Assembly: GCF_012396615.1 (NCBI RefSeq) | Contig: NZ_JAAXPV010000003.1 | Location: 1 to 64,000, forward strand | Direction of reading: 5' to 3' | DNA length: 64,000 bases | From: Rothia terrae | Lineage (GTDB): Bacteria; Actinomycetota; Actinomycetes; Actinomycetales; Micrococcaceae | Shown here: positions 9,315 through 44,047 of the stretch, one piece after another | How the letters are laid out: each line of letters opens with the position of its first letter | Position numbering within the stretch: position 1 is the first letter of the stretch | Program-made: the position numbers and the translations under genes | The notes under the pieces: model-generated | Told to the model about the DNA's origin: nothing | Database searches by the model: none | What the model saw: only the letters and a program-made list of their open reading frames with translations

Positions 9315-9386
9315 CGCCGAGATCCTGATTAATCGCCGAAATCCTGATTTAAAACAGGAACTCGGCGATTAATCAGGATCTCGGCG
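9315..9386. repeat. long perfect inverted repeat
   Basis: Arms of 25 bp (9315-9339, 9362-9386) are perfectly complementary with a 22-nt loop. The loop repeats part of the arm (ATCCTGATT). It follows the ahpCD terminator and lies just upstream of the CPBP gene, so a role as a second terminator or insulator is possible. Confidence 0.6.
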
Positions 9387-13710: not shown

Positions 13711-13719
13711 CTTTTCTTC

Positions 13720-13780
13720 CGCGAGGGGTCATTTATCGTTCAAAATCAGTGGTATTTTGAACGATAAATGACCCCTCGCG
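13720..13780. repeat. long perfect inverted repeat
   Basis: Arms of 27 bp (13720-13746, 13754-13780) with perfect pairing and a 7-nt loop, immediately after the LysE pseudogene. Likely terminator; no T-run. Confidence 0.65.
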
Positions 13781-13874
13781 GCGTTGGTGGTGCAAAGTTC
13801 CAGAAGATGAATCATTTTTTCTGTGACGCAGGCTATGATTTTCGCCCATTTGAGTTTATTCTAGTCCTAAATAA

Positions 13875-38193: not shown

Positions 38194-39570
38194 CTACTGC
38201 TTATGCACTCGCACCAGGTGTTCGTTGGTGAATTCTCGTAGGGCCCAGCGTTCGTTCTCGCGTCCAAAACCTGAGCGGTTGATGCCACCGAACGGGAATG
38301 CTGGTTCTGACTCCATGTGCTTGTTGACGAAGGTCATGCCGGCCTCGATGCGCTCAGCAAACAGGCGTCCGCGCTCCAAATCTTCGGTCCAGACAGACGC
38401 CATGAGACCGAACTCTGTGGCGTTCGCGATGCGCAAGGCGTCCTCTTCATCCTTAGCCTTGAAGACGTTGACGACGGGGCCGAAGATTTCCTCCTGCCCA
38501 GCCTCAGACTCAACATCCACGTCGGTCAGGAGCGCCGGTGACATGAACCAGCCGGGACGGTCCAGCTTCTCACCGCCGGTCACCAAGGTCGCGCCGTTAG
38601 CAACCGCGTCCTGAATCTGCTTGAGAACATCATCGCGAGCTGATTCTGATGACATGGGACCCATGTCGGTGTTGGGGTCGTCGTAATTACCGACGGTCAC
38701 GTTTTCTACGGCTTCCTTGGCGGCTGCCACAAAGTCGTCGTAGTACTCCTCAAGCACAATGATGCGCTTGGGTGAGGTGCAGACCTGACCGGCGTTGGTG
38801 GTGCGGTAGGTCACTGCCTGCTGCGCTAACTTCTTGACATCCGAGGTGTCGAGAACCACGAACGGATCATTGCCGCCGAGTTCCAACACTTGACGCTTGA
38901 GATTTTCACCCGCGATGGACGCGATGGATGCGCCCGCACCCTCAGAGCCGGTGAGCGAGACACCCTTAACGCGGAAGTCCTTAAGAATCTTCTCGGTGTC
39001 TTTGCTGTCCATGTAGATGTTGGTGTATACACCGCGCGGCAGGCCGGCCTCTTCGAGGAGTTCCTGGAACTTCTGTGATGAGACGGGGCAGATGGATGCC
39101 TGCTTCATCAAGATGGTGTTGCCGACCATCAGATTAGGTAGGACAAAGCGCGCGATTTGGTTATAGGGAAAGTTCCATGGCATAACACCCAGCAGAACGC
39201 CCAGAGGCTGGTGAACAACATAGGTGCGCTCAGCACCAGATGCCTCTAGTTCGGTGGGCGCAAGGTGAATGGGCGCCTTGTCAGCGAACCAGCGGGCGGT
39301 GCGGGCAACCTTTTCAAGCTCCGACTTACCTTGTGCTAAGGGCTTGCCCATTTCGCGTCCGATAATGTCTGCGAGCTCATCTGCGTTCTCGTCAACGAGG
39401 TCAGCAAAAGTGCGCAGAACCTTGCCGCGCTGACCGATGGGAGTTGCTTTCCACAGGGTGAAAGCCTCATCAGCAGCGTCGATGATGGCGGGAAGCTGCT
39501 CGGGAGTGAGCGTCTCAAAAGTCTGCTCAACTTCGCCCGTGTTTGCGTTGGTTAGTGCGTATTTACTCAT
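38194..39570 (-). CDS. NAD(P)-dependent succinate-semialdehyde dehydrogenase type
   Basis: A 458-residue aldehyde dehydrogenase. The nucleotide-site MPWNFPYNQIAR, the Glu in LELGGNDPF and the catalytic Cys in NAGQVCTSPKR are in place. The sequence style and length fit the GabD/Sad group (SSA to succinate), but substrate cannot be proven. AT-rich spacer upstream; a monocistronic unit. Confidence 0.88.
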   Translation of the reverse strand: MSKYALTNANTGEVEQTFETLTPEQLPAIIDAADEAFTLWKATPIGQRGKVLRTFADLVDENADELADIIGREMGKPLAQGKSELEKVARTARWFADKAPIHLAPTELEASGAERTYVVHQPLGVLLGVMPWNFPYNQIARFVLPNLMVGNTILMKQASICPVSSQKFQELLEEAGLPRGVYTNIYMDSKDTEKILKDFRVKGVSLTGSEGAGASIASIAGENLKRQVLELGGNDPFVVLDTSDVKKLAQQAVTYRTTNAGQVCTSPKRIIVLEEYYDDFVAAAKEAVENVTVGNYDDPNTDMGPMSSESARDDVLKQIQDAVANGATLVTGGEKLDRPGWFMSPALLTDVDVESEAGQEEIFGPVVNVFKAKDEEDALRIANATEFGLMASVWTEDLERGRLFAERIEAGMTFVNKHMESEPAFPFGGINRSGFGRENERWALREFTNEHLVRVHKQ

Positions 39571-39653
39571 AATGTTAAGCGAATCATCTTTCGTGGATGA
39601 GAGCTAGAGGTTTGTCGTACAGCGAAACATGGGCTGGTTCTTCTGCCACCTCA

Positions 39654-39712
39654 ACTTTCCGTGGATTTACGCTGTAATTTGCGCGTTTTTACAGCGTGAA
39701 TCCACGGAAAGT
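39654..39712. repeat. long inverted repeat
   Basis: Arms of 24 bp (39654-39677, 39689-39712) with one mismatch, upstream of the aldehyde dehydrogenase start. The only member of the long-repeat family here that is not clearly at a gene 3' end, unless it ends an unrecognised transcript. Confidence 0.6.
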
Positions 39713-39960
39713 GCGAAATAGTGTTTTGATGCGGTGCATCCACCTCACAAAAAGGGGCGCTTCATGCCTCTGCTGAGTGCGCTTAAGACCGCATAAAATG
39801 ACATTTAGTAAGCCTAATAAACTAATTATTTTTACTCAGCAAGCTGTCAAAAGAGGCTTCTGACTAGGAGTTAAACCTTTTTAGGTTACTAGAAGTATGC
39901 TTAGTGAAAAGAAGTTTAGAAATTTTCATTTTCCAGCTGATTCTGCCTTTACAAGGCAAT

Positions 39961-40207
39961 ATTCTGCTCTAGAATAAAAAAGGCTCTTACGGAGCTAGCG
40001 TGTAAGAGTCTTCAGCTACTAGAGACGGTCTTCCCTAAACGTTTCTAGAGGATGCTGGAACGGGACTTCTTTGCTCCCTCATTATTGCTTTCCCCCTACA
40101 CAATGAGGTCGAGCGTCCCTGTGGTGTCTCAGCCAGTGCGCTTTAATTCATCTGGCTGAGGCACCCCTTCTAACCGTAGAAACTTGCAAAGTAAACGCTA
40201 AGTTTCT
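39961..40207 (+). ncRNA. candidate structured RNA: chain of six hairpins
   Basis: Successive stems: ATTCT/AGAAT (39961-39975); GGCTCTTAC with GTAAGAGTC (39982-39990, 40002-40010); CTAGAGACG with CGTTTCTAG (40019-40027, 40040-40048); GCTC-CTCATT with AATGAG-GAGC (40073-40083, 40102-40114); 13 bp (40124-40136, 40152-40164); AGAAACTT with AAGTTTCT (40178-40185, 40200-40207). The three single mismatches are all G-U pairs if the + strand is transcribed, but would be C-A on the other strand. It matches no RNA family I recognise (not tmRNA, SRP, RNase P, T-box or ydaO). Confidence 0.45.
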
Positions 40208-40450
40208 CACTGGTAATAAACGATTGTAGGCTAAGAAGTAGTTTATGGCTAGTGTGTTTGCGGTTTTCCCTATCACATTTCTTCATGATGCGAGGATTAA
40301 GCGGACTCTCCTGTGGAGTGCATAGGGTATGGTGTATGAAAAACTACTGGTCAGCCCTAATCTTTTGCCCTCATGCCCTCATCTGCGGTCTTTCCGCATA
40401 CTTAGATAATTTGGGTATCTTTTCTTCATGTTCCCTCCTGAAAGCAGGAG

Positions 40451-40645
40451 ATGACGACCGATTTTAATTCCACTCAGATTTACACCGCTGTTCGTGAGCT
40501 CATTGCCCCGCTGGATGATGACCGCGCGCTCGCCGATGATCTTGCTAGCGCGATTGAACTTGTAGCGGGCGGCGCTATAGCAACCGTTGTTCAGGACGCG
40601 GTTGAGGCAGGTCTTGCAGGTAAAGAAGGTTCATATGTCATCTAA
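40451..40645 (+). CDS. small hypothetical protein upstream of OpuC-type operon
   Basis: A 64-residue acidic protein rich in Asp, Ala and Glu, with codon use like the neighbours. Family not recognised. AGGAG lies directly against the ATG, too close for normal initiation. However, an eight-codon ORF (ATG at 40428) ends at a TGA overlapping this ATG as ATGA, so coupled re-initiation is possible. It precedes the osmoprotectant ATPase by about 60 bases and may belong to the same transcript. Could be a fragment. Confidence 0.5.
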   Translation: MTTDFNSTQIYTAVRELIAPLDDDRALADDLASAIELVAGGAIATVVQDAVEAGLAGKEGSYVI

Positions 40646-40707
40646 ACAGTGATGCCTTCGACACAACCGACAAGTTTGCTTATAAAGTTTTGAATAACCT
40701 AACTCCT

Positions 40708-41787
40708 GTGAAAGATACTGATGTGCTAGATTCCCCTAACGCTATTGAATTCAAGTCAGTCACCAAAAAATACGGTGATGTTGTGGCTGTCGATAACCTC
40801 AACCTGAGCATCCCCCGCGGCAAAATCACCGTATTCGTGGGACCCTCTGGTTGCGGCAAAACCACCTCTTTGCGAATGATTAACCGCATGGTTGAGCACA
40901 CCAGTGGTGAGATCCTGGTCAACGGTGAACCCAATACCGCGCAAGAACCCCACAAACTGCGTCGCTCCATGGGCTATGTGCTTCAGCAGGCTGGTCTGAT
41001 GCCGCATCGTACTATCGTGGACAACATCGCAACCGTGCCTCGCCTCAACGGCACAAGCGCTAAATCAGCGCGCACCGAGGCACTTCAGCTCATGGAAACC
41101 GTCGGCCTCGACACCTCACTGGCAAAGCGCTACCCCGCGCAGCTCTCCGGCGGTCAGGCGCAGCGCGTAGGTGTGGCTCGTGCGCTCGCATCCAACTCAT
41201 CGATCTTGCTCATGGACGAGCCCTTCTCAGCTGTTGACCCCGTTGTCCGTCAGGACTTGCAGAAAGAACTTTTGCGCCTGCAATCAGAGCTTCAGCGCAC
41301 CATTATCTTCGTGACGCACGATATCGATGAGGCTGTTCTGCTCGGTGACTACGTTGCTGTTTTCGCAGTGGGAGGACGCCTCGCTCAGTTTGGCACCCCC
41401 GAAGAAATTCTGCGTGAACCTGCTGATGACTTTGTGGCATCGTTTGTAGGACGCGACCGCGGTATGCGCCGCTTGACGTTCGCGGGCGCATCCGACGTAA
41501 AAATTCACCCGCTGACGAGCCAGCACACTCCGTGGCAACAGTGGGAACTCAAGGTAGAAGACGGCAAACCCGCCGGTTGGATCATTGATGGACGCACCAT
41601 TCCCGGTGGCTCACTCTTTGTCGAGGGCGGCACTTTGCGTGATGCGCTGGACTCGGTGCTGTCATCGCCGTCGGGTGTTGGTGTGGCGGTTGATCGTAAC
41701 GGTAAGGTGCTGGGCTTACTGAAGTCCGAGGACGTTCTTGCCGCCACTGAAGCTGAGCGTCACCGTCGTTACGGGGTGAACGCGTGA
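40708..41787 (+). CDS. opuCA: osmoprotectant ABC transporter ATPase (OpuCA/ProV type)
   Basis: About 360 residues. Walker A is GPSGCGKT, the signature is LSGGQAQRVGVARAL, Walker B is ILLMDEPFSAVD, and the H-loop is VTHDIDEA. Past residue about 240 the C-terminal part is long enough for a CBS-like regulatory region. It energises uptake of glycine betaine, choline or carnitine. The start is uncertain: GTG at 40708, GTG at 40720 or TTG at 40690, none with a clear ribosome site. Its stop overlaps the next gene by four bases (GTGA). Confidence 0.88.
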   Translation: MKDTDVLDSPNAIEFKSVTKKYGDVVAVDNLNLSIPRGKITVFVGPSGCGKTTSLRMINRMVEHTSGEILVNGEPNTAQEPHKLRRSMGYVLQQAGLMPHRTIVDNIATVPRLNGTSAKSARTEALQLMETVGLDTSLAKRYPAQLSGGQAQRVGVARALASNSSILLMDEPFSAVDPVVRQDLQKELLRLQSELQRTIIFVTHDIDEAVLLGDYVAVFAVGGRLAQFGTPEEILREPADDFVASFVGRDRGMRRLTFAGASDVKIHPLTSQHTPWQQWELKVEDGKPAGWIIDGRTIPGGSLFVEGGTLRDALDSVLSSPSGVGVAVDRNGKVLGLLKSEDVLAATEAERHRRYGVNA

Positions 41788-42458
41788 ACTGGCTGATGAA
41801 TAACCTGCCCTATGTGGGGCAGTTGAGCGCGCTGCACCTGTTGCAGTCGATTATTCCGGTAATTGCCGGAACGCTCATTTCAATTCCGATAGCTCGGTTG
41901 GCGGTAGGACGCCGCCGCGATGGACGTTCAACCGCCGGTCACACTGCGGGGTCAGCGTTTAAGCGTGGGGCGGTTGTGAACACTGCCGCGCTGCTGTATA
42001 CCATTCCGTCGCTGGCGCTCTTTGTGCTGATGCCGCTGGTGCTTGGTACCTCGATCACCTCACCGTTGAACGTCTACGTGGCACTCACTATTTACGTGGT
42101 TGCCATGATGGTGCGCTCCGCCGTGGATGCCTTTGAGTCCGTCTCACCGGTCACCCTGGAGTCAGCAACGGCTATGGGTTATAAACCTGTGCGTCGTTTC
42201 TGGGCAGTGGAACTTCCCCTCGCGGTGCCCGTTATGCTGGCGGGTCTGCGCGTGGCTCTCGTTTCGAACATCTCAATGGTGTCGGTGGGTGCAGTGATTG
42301 GTATTCAATCCCTCGGTACGCTTTTTACGGACGGTCTGCGCCGCAACCTACCTGCTGAAATCATCGTCGGTATTGTGGGCACCGTCGTCCTTGCTCTTAT
42401 TCTTGACCGCCTGCTTGCGCTCATCGGCGCGTGGCTCACCCGCTGGAGGAAAGCATGA
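41784..42458 (+). CDS. opuCB: osmoprotectant ABC transporter permease
   Basis: A 224-residue permease with about five to six helices; the EAA-type loop reads ESATAMGYKPVRRFWAVELPLA. GTG start overlapping the ATPase stop; its own TGA overlaps the next ATG (ATGA). Confidence 0.9.
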   Translation: MNWLMNNLPYVGQLSALHLLQSIIPVIAGTLISIPIARLAVGRRRDGRSTAGHTAGSAFKRGAVVNTAALLYTIPSLALFVLMPLVLGTSITSPLNVYVALTIYVVAMMVRSAVDAFESVSPVTLESATAMGYKPVRRFWAVELPLAVPVMLAGLRVALVSNISMVSVGAVIGIQSLGTLFTDGLRRNLPAEIIVGIVGTVVLALILDRLLALIGAWLTRWRKA

Positions 42459-43114
42459 ATATCTTCGATAAGACGTGGGCTTGGTTTACTGCTGACGGCG
42501 CGTGGACGGGCGCCGGTGGTATCTTCCAGCGCGTGGCTGAGCATCTTGGCTACTCGGCTCTTATTTTGCTAATCGCGGCTGTGATTGCTGTGCCGATCGG
42601 TTTGATGGTGGGGCATACCGGACGCGGTGAAAACGTGGTGGTCGCTATCACCGGTGCCTTACGCGCTTTGCCGACTCTCGGTTTGCTGACTCTCTTCGCA
42701 TTGTGGCTCGGGCTGGGGCTGGTGGCCCCGATTGCCGCTCTGGTGATCCTCGCAATTGCGCCGCTTCTGGCAGGCGTCTACTCGGGTATCGCCGCCGTCG
42801 ATAAGGTGACGGTAGATGCTGCTCGTGCCCAGGGCATGACTGAAAGCCAGATTCTGCGCAAGGTTGAGTTGCCGCTGGCGCTTCCGCTGATTTTCGGTGG
42901 CATCCGCAATGCTGCACTGCAGGTTATCGCAACCGTCACCGTGGTCGCCTACATCAACCTAGGTGGTCTTGGCCGCTACCTCATTGACGGTCTTGCTGTG
43001 CGTGATTACCCGCGCATGGTTGCCGCCGTTGTTCTCGTTGCTCTTCTTGCGCTCATTGTGGACGCACTTCTTGCTTTGCTTCAGCGCGCACTTACCCCGC
43101 GCGGAACCCGATAG
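42455..43114 (+). CDS. opuCD: osmoprotectant ABC transporter permease
   Basis: A 219-residue permease partner. The EAA loop reads DAARAQGMTESQILRKVELPLA. ATG 42455 has an excellent GGAGGAAAGC ribosome site; the open frame extends eight codons upstream. Together with the previous permease it forms the channel. Confidence 0.9.
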   Translation: MNIFDKTWAWFTADGAWTGAGGIFQRVAEHLGYSALILLIAAVIAVPIGLMVGHTGRGENVVVAITGALRALPTLGLLTLFALWLGLGLVAPIAALVILAIAPLLAGVYSGIAAVDKVTVDAARAQGMTESQILRKVELPLALPLIFGGIRNAALQVIATVTVVAYINLGGLGRYLIDGLAVRDYPRMVAAVVLVALLALIVDALLALLQRALTPRGTR

Positions 43115-43123
43115 GACTTACCC

Positions 43124-44047
43124 ATGAACACTATGAATCGTCGTCAACTTTTTACTTTGGCAGGGCTAGGCACGGGCGTGCTTGCGCTGAGCGGATGCGG
43201 TCTCTCCGGCGAAACAGCTTTTGGTAGCGGGGGAGTGAGTGACACCGTGACTGTCGGTTCGGCTGACTTCACGGAGTCGCAGATTATCGCTGAAATTTAC
43301 GCGGCTGCTTTGAAGAAGCGCGGTATTAATGCTGAAACTGTTCCCGCTATTGGTGCGCGTGAGGCGTACATCGGTGCGCTCCAAGAAGGAACGGTAGGCG
43401 TTGTGCCTGATTACAGCGGTAACTTGCTACTCTACTTTGATGCGCAGACCAAGGCGCAGGCTCCCGAAGAGATTATGAAAGCTCTTCCTTCTGCTCTTTC
43501 CGATCAGCTTTCGGTGCTTGATCCTTCTCCCGCTGAGAATAAGGATTCGCTGGTGGTCACCGCGGAAGTGGCACAGAAGTTCGGGCTGAAGTCTATTGCA
43601 GACCTCGCCGTGCATAACTCTGAGATAACTCTCGGTGGTCCTCCTGAATTTGCCGAGCGTTCGTACGGTTTGCCAGGGCTGAAAAAGAACTACGGTTTTG
43701 TGCCGGCTAAGTTCTCACCGATTAACGACGGCGGCGGCCCGCTAACTGTGCAGGCGCTCATCGACGATCAGGTACAGACGGCAGATCTTTTCTCCACCGA
43801 TCCTGCGATTGTGAAGAATAACTTTGTGGTGCTGGAGGACCCGAAGAATAACTTCTTGGCTCAGCAGGTTGTTCCCGTGGTGAATGCCAAGCAGGTTTCG
43901 GTGGCTGCTGCCGATGTACTGAATGAGGTGTCTGCCTTGCTGAAGACCGAGGATCTCATCGCTTTGAACGACAGGGTTTCAGGCGAGGAAAAGACTAATC
44001 CGGCTACCGCTGCCAAGGATTGGGTGGATCAGAAGTTAGTAGCCTAG
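43124..44047 (+). CDS. opuCC: glycine betaine/choline-binding lipoprotein
   Basis: A 307-residue OpuAC/ProX-type binding lipoprotein. The leader has NRRQLFTLAGLG (Tat-like) and a lipobox LSGC. The mature domain starts VTVGSADFTESQIIAEIYAAALKK, a hallmark of the OpuCC/OsmF group. The last gene of the operon. Its stop is only three bases from the convergent TetR gene stop, with no terminator between them. Confidence 0.9.
   Translation: MNTMNRRQLFTLAGLGTGVLALSGCGLSGETAFGSGGVSDTVTVGSADFTESQIIAEIYAAALKKRGINAETVPAIGAREAYIGALQEGTVGVVPDYSGNLLLYFDAQTKAQAPEEIMKALPSALSDQLSVLDPSPAENKDSLVVTAEVAQKFGLKSIADLAVHNSEITLGGPPEFAERSYGLPGLKKNYGFVPAKFSPINDGGGPLTVQALIDDQVQTADLFSTDPAIVKNNFVVLEDPKNNFLAQQVVPVVNAKQVSVAAADVLNEVSALLKTEDLIALNDRVSGEEKTNPATAAKDWVDQKLVA

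Follow-up and report, generated by a model that had tools for sequence, protein, structure and literature searches.

Bacterial small RNAs built from several hairpins include the CsrB/RsmY sponges and the actinobacterial 6C RNA. The Rothia terrae locus described here resembles them in carrying a row of independent short hairpins within a noncoding region, but differs in that the row has no Rfam match, no relatives found and no established common loop motif, and is known here from sequence alone. Two further described systems come close to other parts of the locus. The type II CRISPR-Cas locus of a relative (genome G002, locus L099) shares with it an array-edge stretch of 82 nt that is 66% identical, and the G002 cas genes follow aldH; in contrast, no cas9 match was found in the genome under study (G000), and the spacer lacks a repeat array. 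Ergothionase-type lyases (PF00221) are represented by a stub that aligns with the C-terminus of the full-length lyases of two relatives, G033 and G030, but only 64 codons are left here, and the relatives' lyases themselves score under the named-lyase cut-offs.

We analysed a stretch of 64,000 nucleotides, hereafter the 64-kb window. Literature searches returned nothing on this locus. We tentatively read the hairpin row as a species-specific (orphan) structured RNA of ~230-250 nt (39978-40212), encoded on either strand and lying in a deletion scar, and give this reading somewhat less than an even chance.

The hairpin row and its genomic background

The hairpins lie in an 880-bp spacer (39571-40450) flanked by aldH, an aldehyde dehydrogenase gene on the - strand (38194-39570), and by a 64-codon open reading frame (40451-40645). 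No recognisable gene was found within this spacer, which bears out the original prediction of 880 gene-free base pairs. The spacer is AT-rich, with a G+C content of 38-49% against 54% for the 64-kb window, and no tRNA or tmRNA was detected in that window. The features discussed below are the following.

39571..40450, strand not applicable: spacer as a whole, from aldH to the lyase stub
39791..39872, + strand: 82-nt stretch like the type II CRISPR locus of G002, between anti-repeat and first repeat, 66% identity
39948..39975, + strand: promoter-like site before H2, 10/12 match
39980..40012, both strands: H2 stem-loop, -14.3 kcal/mol on +, -9.7 on -
40019..40048, both strands: H3 stem-loop, G-U on +, -11.3 kcal/mol on +, -6.5 on -
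40077..40108, both strands: H4 stem-loop core, A-C on +, G-U on -, -13.7 kcal/mol on +, -18.6 on -
40123..40165, both strands: H5 stem-loop, 14-bp stem, G-U on +, -26.7 kcal/mol on +, -23.4 on -
40178..40207, both strands: H6 stem-loop, -9.4 kcal/mol on +, -10.7 on -
40223..40251, - strand: promoter-like site upstream of H6, 9/12 match
40451..40645, + strand: C-terminal stub, 64 codons, of an aromatic-amino-acid-lyase-like (ergothionase-type) gene, from protein alignment to G033 and G030
40690..44047, + strand: OpuC-type ABC importer with ATPase, two permeases and binding protein

H2 to H6 are five strong, non-overlapping stems on one uniform stem score, and the outer pairs of H4 extend to 40062-40118. 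Six stems had been proposed between 39961 and 40207; the five strong ones are real, while the sixth, a short stem at ~39960-39976, is weak (-3.2 kcal/mol on +). Folded as RNA, the segment 39940-40230 reaches -99.6 kcal/mol on + (z -5.0) and -91.8 kcal/mol on - (z -3.1), and 0 of 200 shuffles were equally stable on either strand. The broader interval 39850-40450 is also structured, with z values of -4.9 on + and -2.6 on - (20 shuffles per strand), and 39976-40450 gave a z of -3.6 on +.

Measured against its own genome, the segment is moderately unusual by folding energy and unusual by stem arrangement. The comparison set was 130 noncoding windows with little overlap between them, drawn from the 64-kb window plus a further 400 kb of this genome; the target neighbourhood was excluded. 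Five strong stems within 291 nt were seen in none of the 130, and one window has four; these counts are a description and no clean test, because the stem-score threshold was set after the target stems were known. Mononucleotide shuffles of the target (n = 100) contained no strong stem in 67 cases, one in 32 and two in 1. Folding energy is less striking: 18 of the 130 windows had a z equal to or lower than that of the target, their z values coming from 16 shuffles each with a common standard deviation assumed. At least five hairpins in the minimum-energy fold, as in the target, were present in 12 of 130, and the GC-corrected stability of the target was matched by 42 of 228 low-coding windows, a set that overlaps and includes the target's own neighbourhood.

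Strand and transcription signals

The original prediction assigned the RNA to the + strand from a bias in G-U pairs. Three stems (at 39980, 40019 and 40123) do carry one G-U pair on +, but the argument is overstated: the stem at 40077-40108 is the reverse case, with A-C on + and G-U on -, and single-stem energies, better on + for H2, H3 and H5, are better on - for H4 and H6. The sole U-tract terminator of the spacer, found in a scan with a wider loop limit, is H2 read on the - strand (40012 to 39979, then TTTTTTATT). The same scan found no U-tract terminator on the + strand of the spacer, and a scan with loops restricted to 3-8 detected none in the spacer at all. Such terminators occur at a background rate of 0.235 per kb, both strands counted, in 400 kb of the genome, and no annotated gene upstream would need a - strand terminator at H2.

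Together with the promoter-like site before H6, this terminator brackets the stems on -. The promoter-like sites are no evidence by themselves, because the two found compare with a shuffle mean of 1.4, i.e. shuffle level. The + strand folds better as a whole (z -5.0 vs -3.1). With G-U pairs, stem energies, terminator and promoter-like sites giving a mixed picture, either strand is therefore possible, and the preference for + is weak. A transcript on - could start at the promoter-like site just before H6 and end at the H2 U-tract terminator; a transcript on + would have the better whole fold and the promoter-like site before H2, and no U-tract terminator. The RNA would in either case be transcribed as a stand-alone unit. 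If functional, it would most likely be trans-acting or protein-binding, with independent hairpins, and no ligand-sensing leader of the importer.

The stems also read well as inverted repeats at the DNA level, and the strand bias is weak. Both points would suit a function of the DNA itself, in which the stems are palindromes bound by a protein or sites of recombination. The stems do not, however, make up a repeat family among themselves, and beyond 15-base matches no further copy was found elsewhere in the genome, which sets them apart from arrays of operators or sites; we consider this explanation very improbable.

Relatives, repeats and mobile elements

No family of Rfam 15 reached its gathering score in the 64-kb window, which rules out a described RNA family and agrees with the earlier failure to recognise ydaO, T-box, tmRNA, SRP or RNase P. 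A permissive scan of 39560-40700 returned seven matches, all below the gathering score and four of them on a palindrome at 39654-39712. This palindrome, upstream of aldH, is 59 nt long and near-perfect with 24-nt arms, and at least 23 further places in the R. terrae genome match it, while at E 0.001 its host spacer is unmatched in any of the other 34 genomes of the genus. In 15 aligned copies the arms are conserved and the loop stands in either orientation, a pattern by which we classify it as a repeat or MITE-like family. The window holds two other long palindromes, at 9315-9386 (36-nt arms without a loop, 92% complementary) and at 13719-13781 (28-nt arms, 7-nt loop, 100% complementary).

Spacer DNA had no match in the other 34 genomes of the genus at E 0.001. 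At E 10, the interval 39840-40460 produced only short pieces in the genus genomes, the best being 25 nt at E 0.01, and a search with 39860-40460 at E 0.01 in 395 family genomes, themselves a sample of a larger group, matched the own genome only and none of the 394 others. Single-sequence covariance models were built for two parts of the row, R1 (40058-40212) and R2 (39976-40118). Besides the own genome, R1 found a stem-sized match in G034 and a weak match in G001 in the genus search (E up to 1), and R2 found one weak match in G014, where 64 nt are squeezed over the whole model at 17 bits. In the family sample (E 0.01, stricter filters), R1 matched 2 of 395 genomes, namely the own genome and G034. 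The G034 match (22 bits, one stem) sits inside a 603-aa open frame and was rejected as a structural homolog. The G001 locus (L213) scores 28 bits across the whole R1 model when searched alone, whereas 1.1 Mb of background sequence peaks at 15.8 bits. We do not accept it as a homolog, because most of this score comes from one intergenic hairpin, a perfect 14-bp stem flanked by two open frames, with poor pairing elsewhere, including non-standard pairs in the H4 and H6 parts; on the model score, it may serve as the best structural lead.

With no DNA match in 34 genus and 394 family genomes and no accepted structural relative, the suggestion of a conserved RNA does not hold. Since no relative examined clearly shares the hairpins, they would represent at most a species-specific RNA and no conserved regulator of the importer. 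A cis-acting leader, in which + strand transcription would cross the stems and the stub to reach opuCA and control the importer, would suit the shared + orientation of hairpins and importer, the position 240-480 nt upstream of the stub and the ATPase gene, and the better whole fold of the + strand. Against such a leader, no sequence is held in common upstream of the orthologous ATPase genes at 29 other genus loci compared, a lyase gene occupies the site in G033 and G030, and the sole U-tract terminator is on the opposite strand. We rate it as improbable.

The DNA of 39570-40660 had no match in phage and plasmid records at E 1, and the stub protein had none in plasmid records; a phage or plasmid origin was rejected on these searches. 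Exact stem patterns were also sought in viral contigs, where H5 and the H6 stretch gave none. H2 occurred in one contig, as a terminator between phage genes with no R1 or R2 match, and H4 in two, one with a single-stem match of 10.7-10.9 bits to the models and the other with none; all three were rejected. No direct-repeat array was found in 39570-40450, only short two- or three-copy families. The motif GCTTCTSACTAGG at 39856, common to G002 and G025, was likewise set aside: the 35 genus genomes contain 28 matches to it and 10 to its reversed control, several of the 28 are copies of one site, and no common context was seen.

The left part of the spacer resembles the edge of a CRISPR array. The stretch 39791-39872 aligns with L099 6869-6950 (G002) at 39.7 bits, the best of 200 shuffles reaching 31.1, and its E of 0.002 in ~1.4 Mb of searched DNA is second only to that of the stub. 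Array-flanking sequence is in this way common to the spacer and an intact CRISPR locus, in one relative only, and we take the stretch as a shared flank and no proof of a CRISPR relic. The G002 type II locus itself (L099 2141-7388) comprises cas9, cas1, cas2, an anti-repeat and seven repeats, and lies between aldH and siderophore-type ABC genes; cas9 was matched in 4 of 35 genus genomes, three of these above the cut-off. The DNA upstream of the aldH start is common with G002 over ~40 nt and with G027 over ~20 nt, and the aldH-side match to G033 and R. amarae is confined within the gene.

The lyase stub and the deletion scar

The small open reading frame 5' of the OpuC-type importer is located as the original prediction had placed it, but is the remnant of a lyase gene and no operon gene in its own right. 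Its product is 52% identical over 58 aa to the lyase C-terminus of G033 and 47% over 58 aa to that of G030, and in both genomes the complete lyase gene stands directly before the opuCA ATPase gene. Matches to the stub protein occur in 4 of 35 genus genomes (the own genome, G033, G030 and G003), and in the codon comparison of the stub synonymous sites are saturated or nearly so. The gene order is aldH, hydratase, desulfurase, MFS transporter, lyase and ATPase in G033 (Rothia MAG S11A_Sa_8), and hydratase, desulfurase, lyase and ATPase in G030.

The relatives' cluster looks like one for ergothioneine catabolism, the alternative being a histidine-type catabolism. The best-scoring family of the G033 hydratase is thiourocanate hydratase, below its cut-off (703.6 against 930), while the protein does pass the cut-off of urocanate hydratase (604.8 against 375); that of the G033 desulfurase is thiohydantoin desulfurase, again below the cut-off (369.2 against 440). 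The hydratase, desulfurase and lyase proteins of G030 belong to the same Pfam classes as those of G033, and the lyases are full-length PF00221 members, none of which reaches the NCBIfam cut-off for any of the named lyases listed. These lyases have GTG at the position, located by eye, where MIO-dependent lyases have the ASG (Ala-Ser-Gly) tripeptide. Ergothionase is reported to be without MIO (PMC13405746).

In R. amarae KJZ-9 (G003, L097), the same site upstream of opuCA holds 91 codons of the lyase end with an internal TAG, and this tail adjoins DNA that by eye resembles a hydratase fragment; the R. amarae locus is, as far as its sequence indicates, an independent erosion of the same cluster. 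From the stub here, the whole cluster in two relatives and the broken tail in R. amarae, it follows that the hairpins sit in a deletion scar: the spacer marks the place where a cluster resembling those for ergothioneine catabolism has been lost. A further lyase remnant considered at 39904-39972 (C-terminal region) is unproven, as it scores below shuffles and its DNA match to R. amarae has an E of 0.064. The spacer was also searched for traces of other genes with 862 open frames taken from 16 related loci, and the best score of 23.9 bits lies within the 21.9-24.6 of six shuffles.

A locus that erodes in more than one species is also where an inert relic might be expected: a piece of some acquired or mobile element, or of CRISPR-flanking DNA, without present function, whose hairpins are inherited terminators and palindromes. 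The segment is AT-rich and without relatives, its left part resembles the G002 array edge, and hairpin-bearing noncoding DNA is common in the R. terrae genome, all of which would suit such a relic. However, five near-perfect stems in a row would be hard to keep without selection, and there is no phage or plasmid match, no cas9 match in the own genome and no repeat array. We regard an inert relic as a serious possibility, which falls short of even odds as well.

The species-specific RNA is placed slightly above it. In its favour are the five stems absent from all 130 background windows, the z values, the H2 terminator on - and the G-U pairs of three stems against one; it is weakened by the lack of relatives, by the 18 of 130 windows that match its energy and by promoters at shuffle level. 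A fuller version of this reading, in which a new lineage-restricted multi-hairpin RNA of ~230-250 nt, possibly read on - from ~40215 to ~39970, arose or landed in the scar of the ergothioneine cluster beside an importer that may take up ergothioneine, is more doubtful, and we would put it at somewhat under one chance in three.

The importer (40690-44047) has orthologues that stand behind the lyase, hydratase and desulfurase genes in G033 and G030 (L098, L100), and in PDB comparisons its binding protein is about as close to the ergothioneine transporter EgtUC as to ProX and choline binders. These likenesses make ergothioneine a candidate substrate. Through the stub, an importer annotated for osmoprotectants is linked to ergothioneine-catabolism-like genes, and its substrate becomes testable, independently of how the RNA is read. 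If transcribed, the hairpin row would be a species-restricted gene for a structured RNA, at a site where the relatives reveal how genes were lost.
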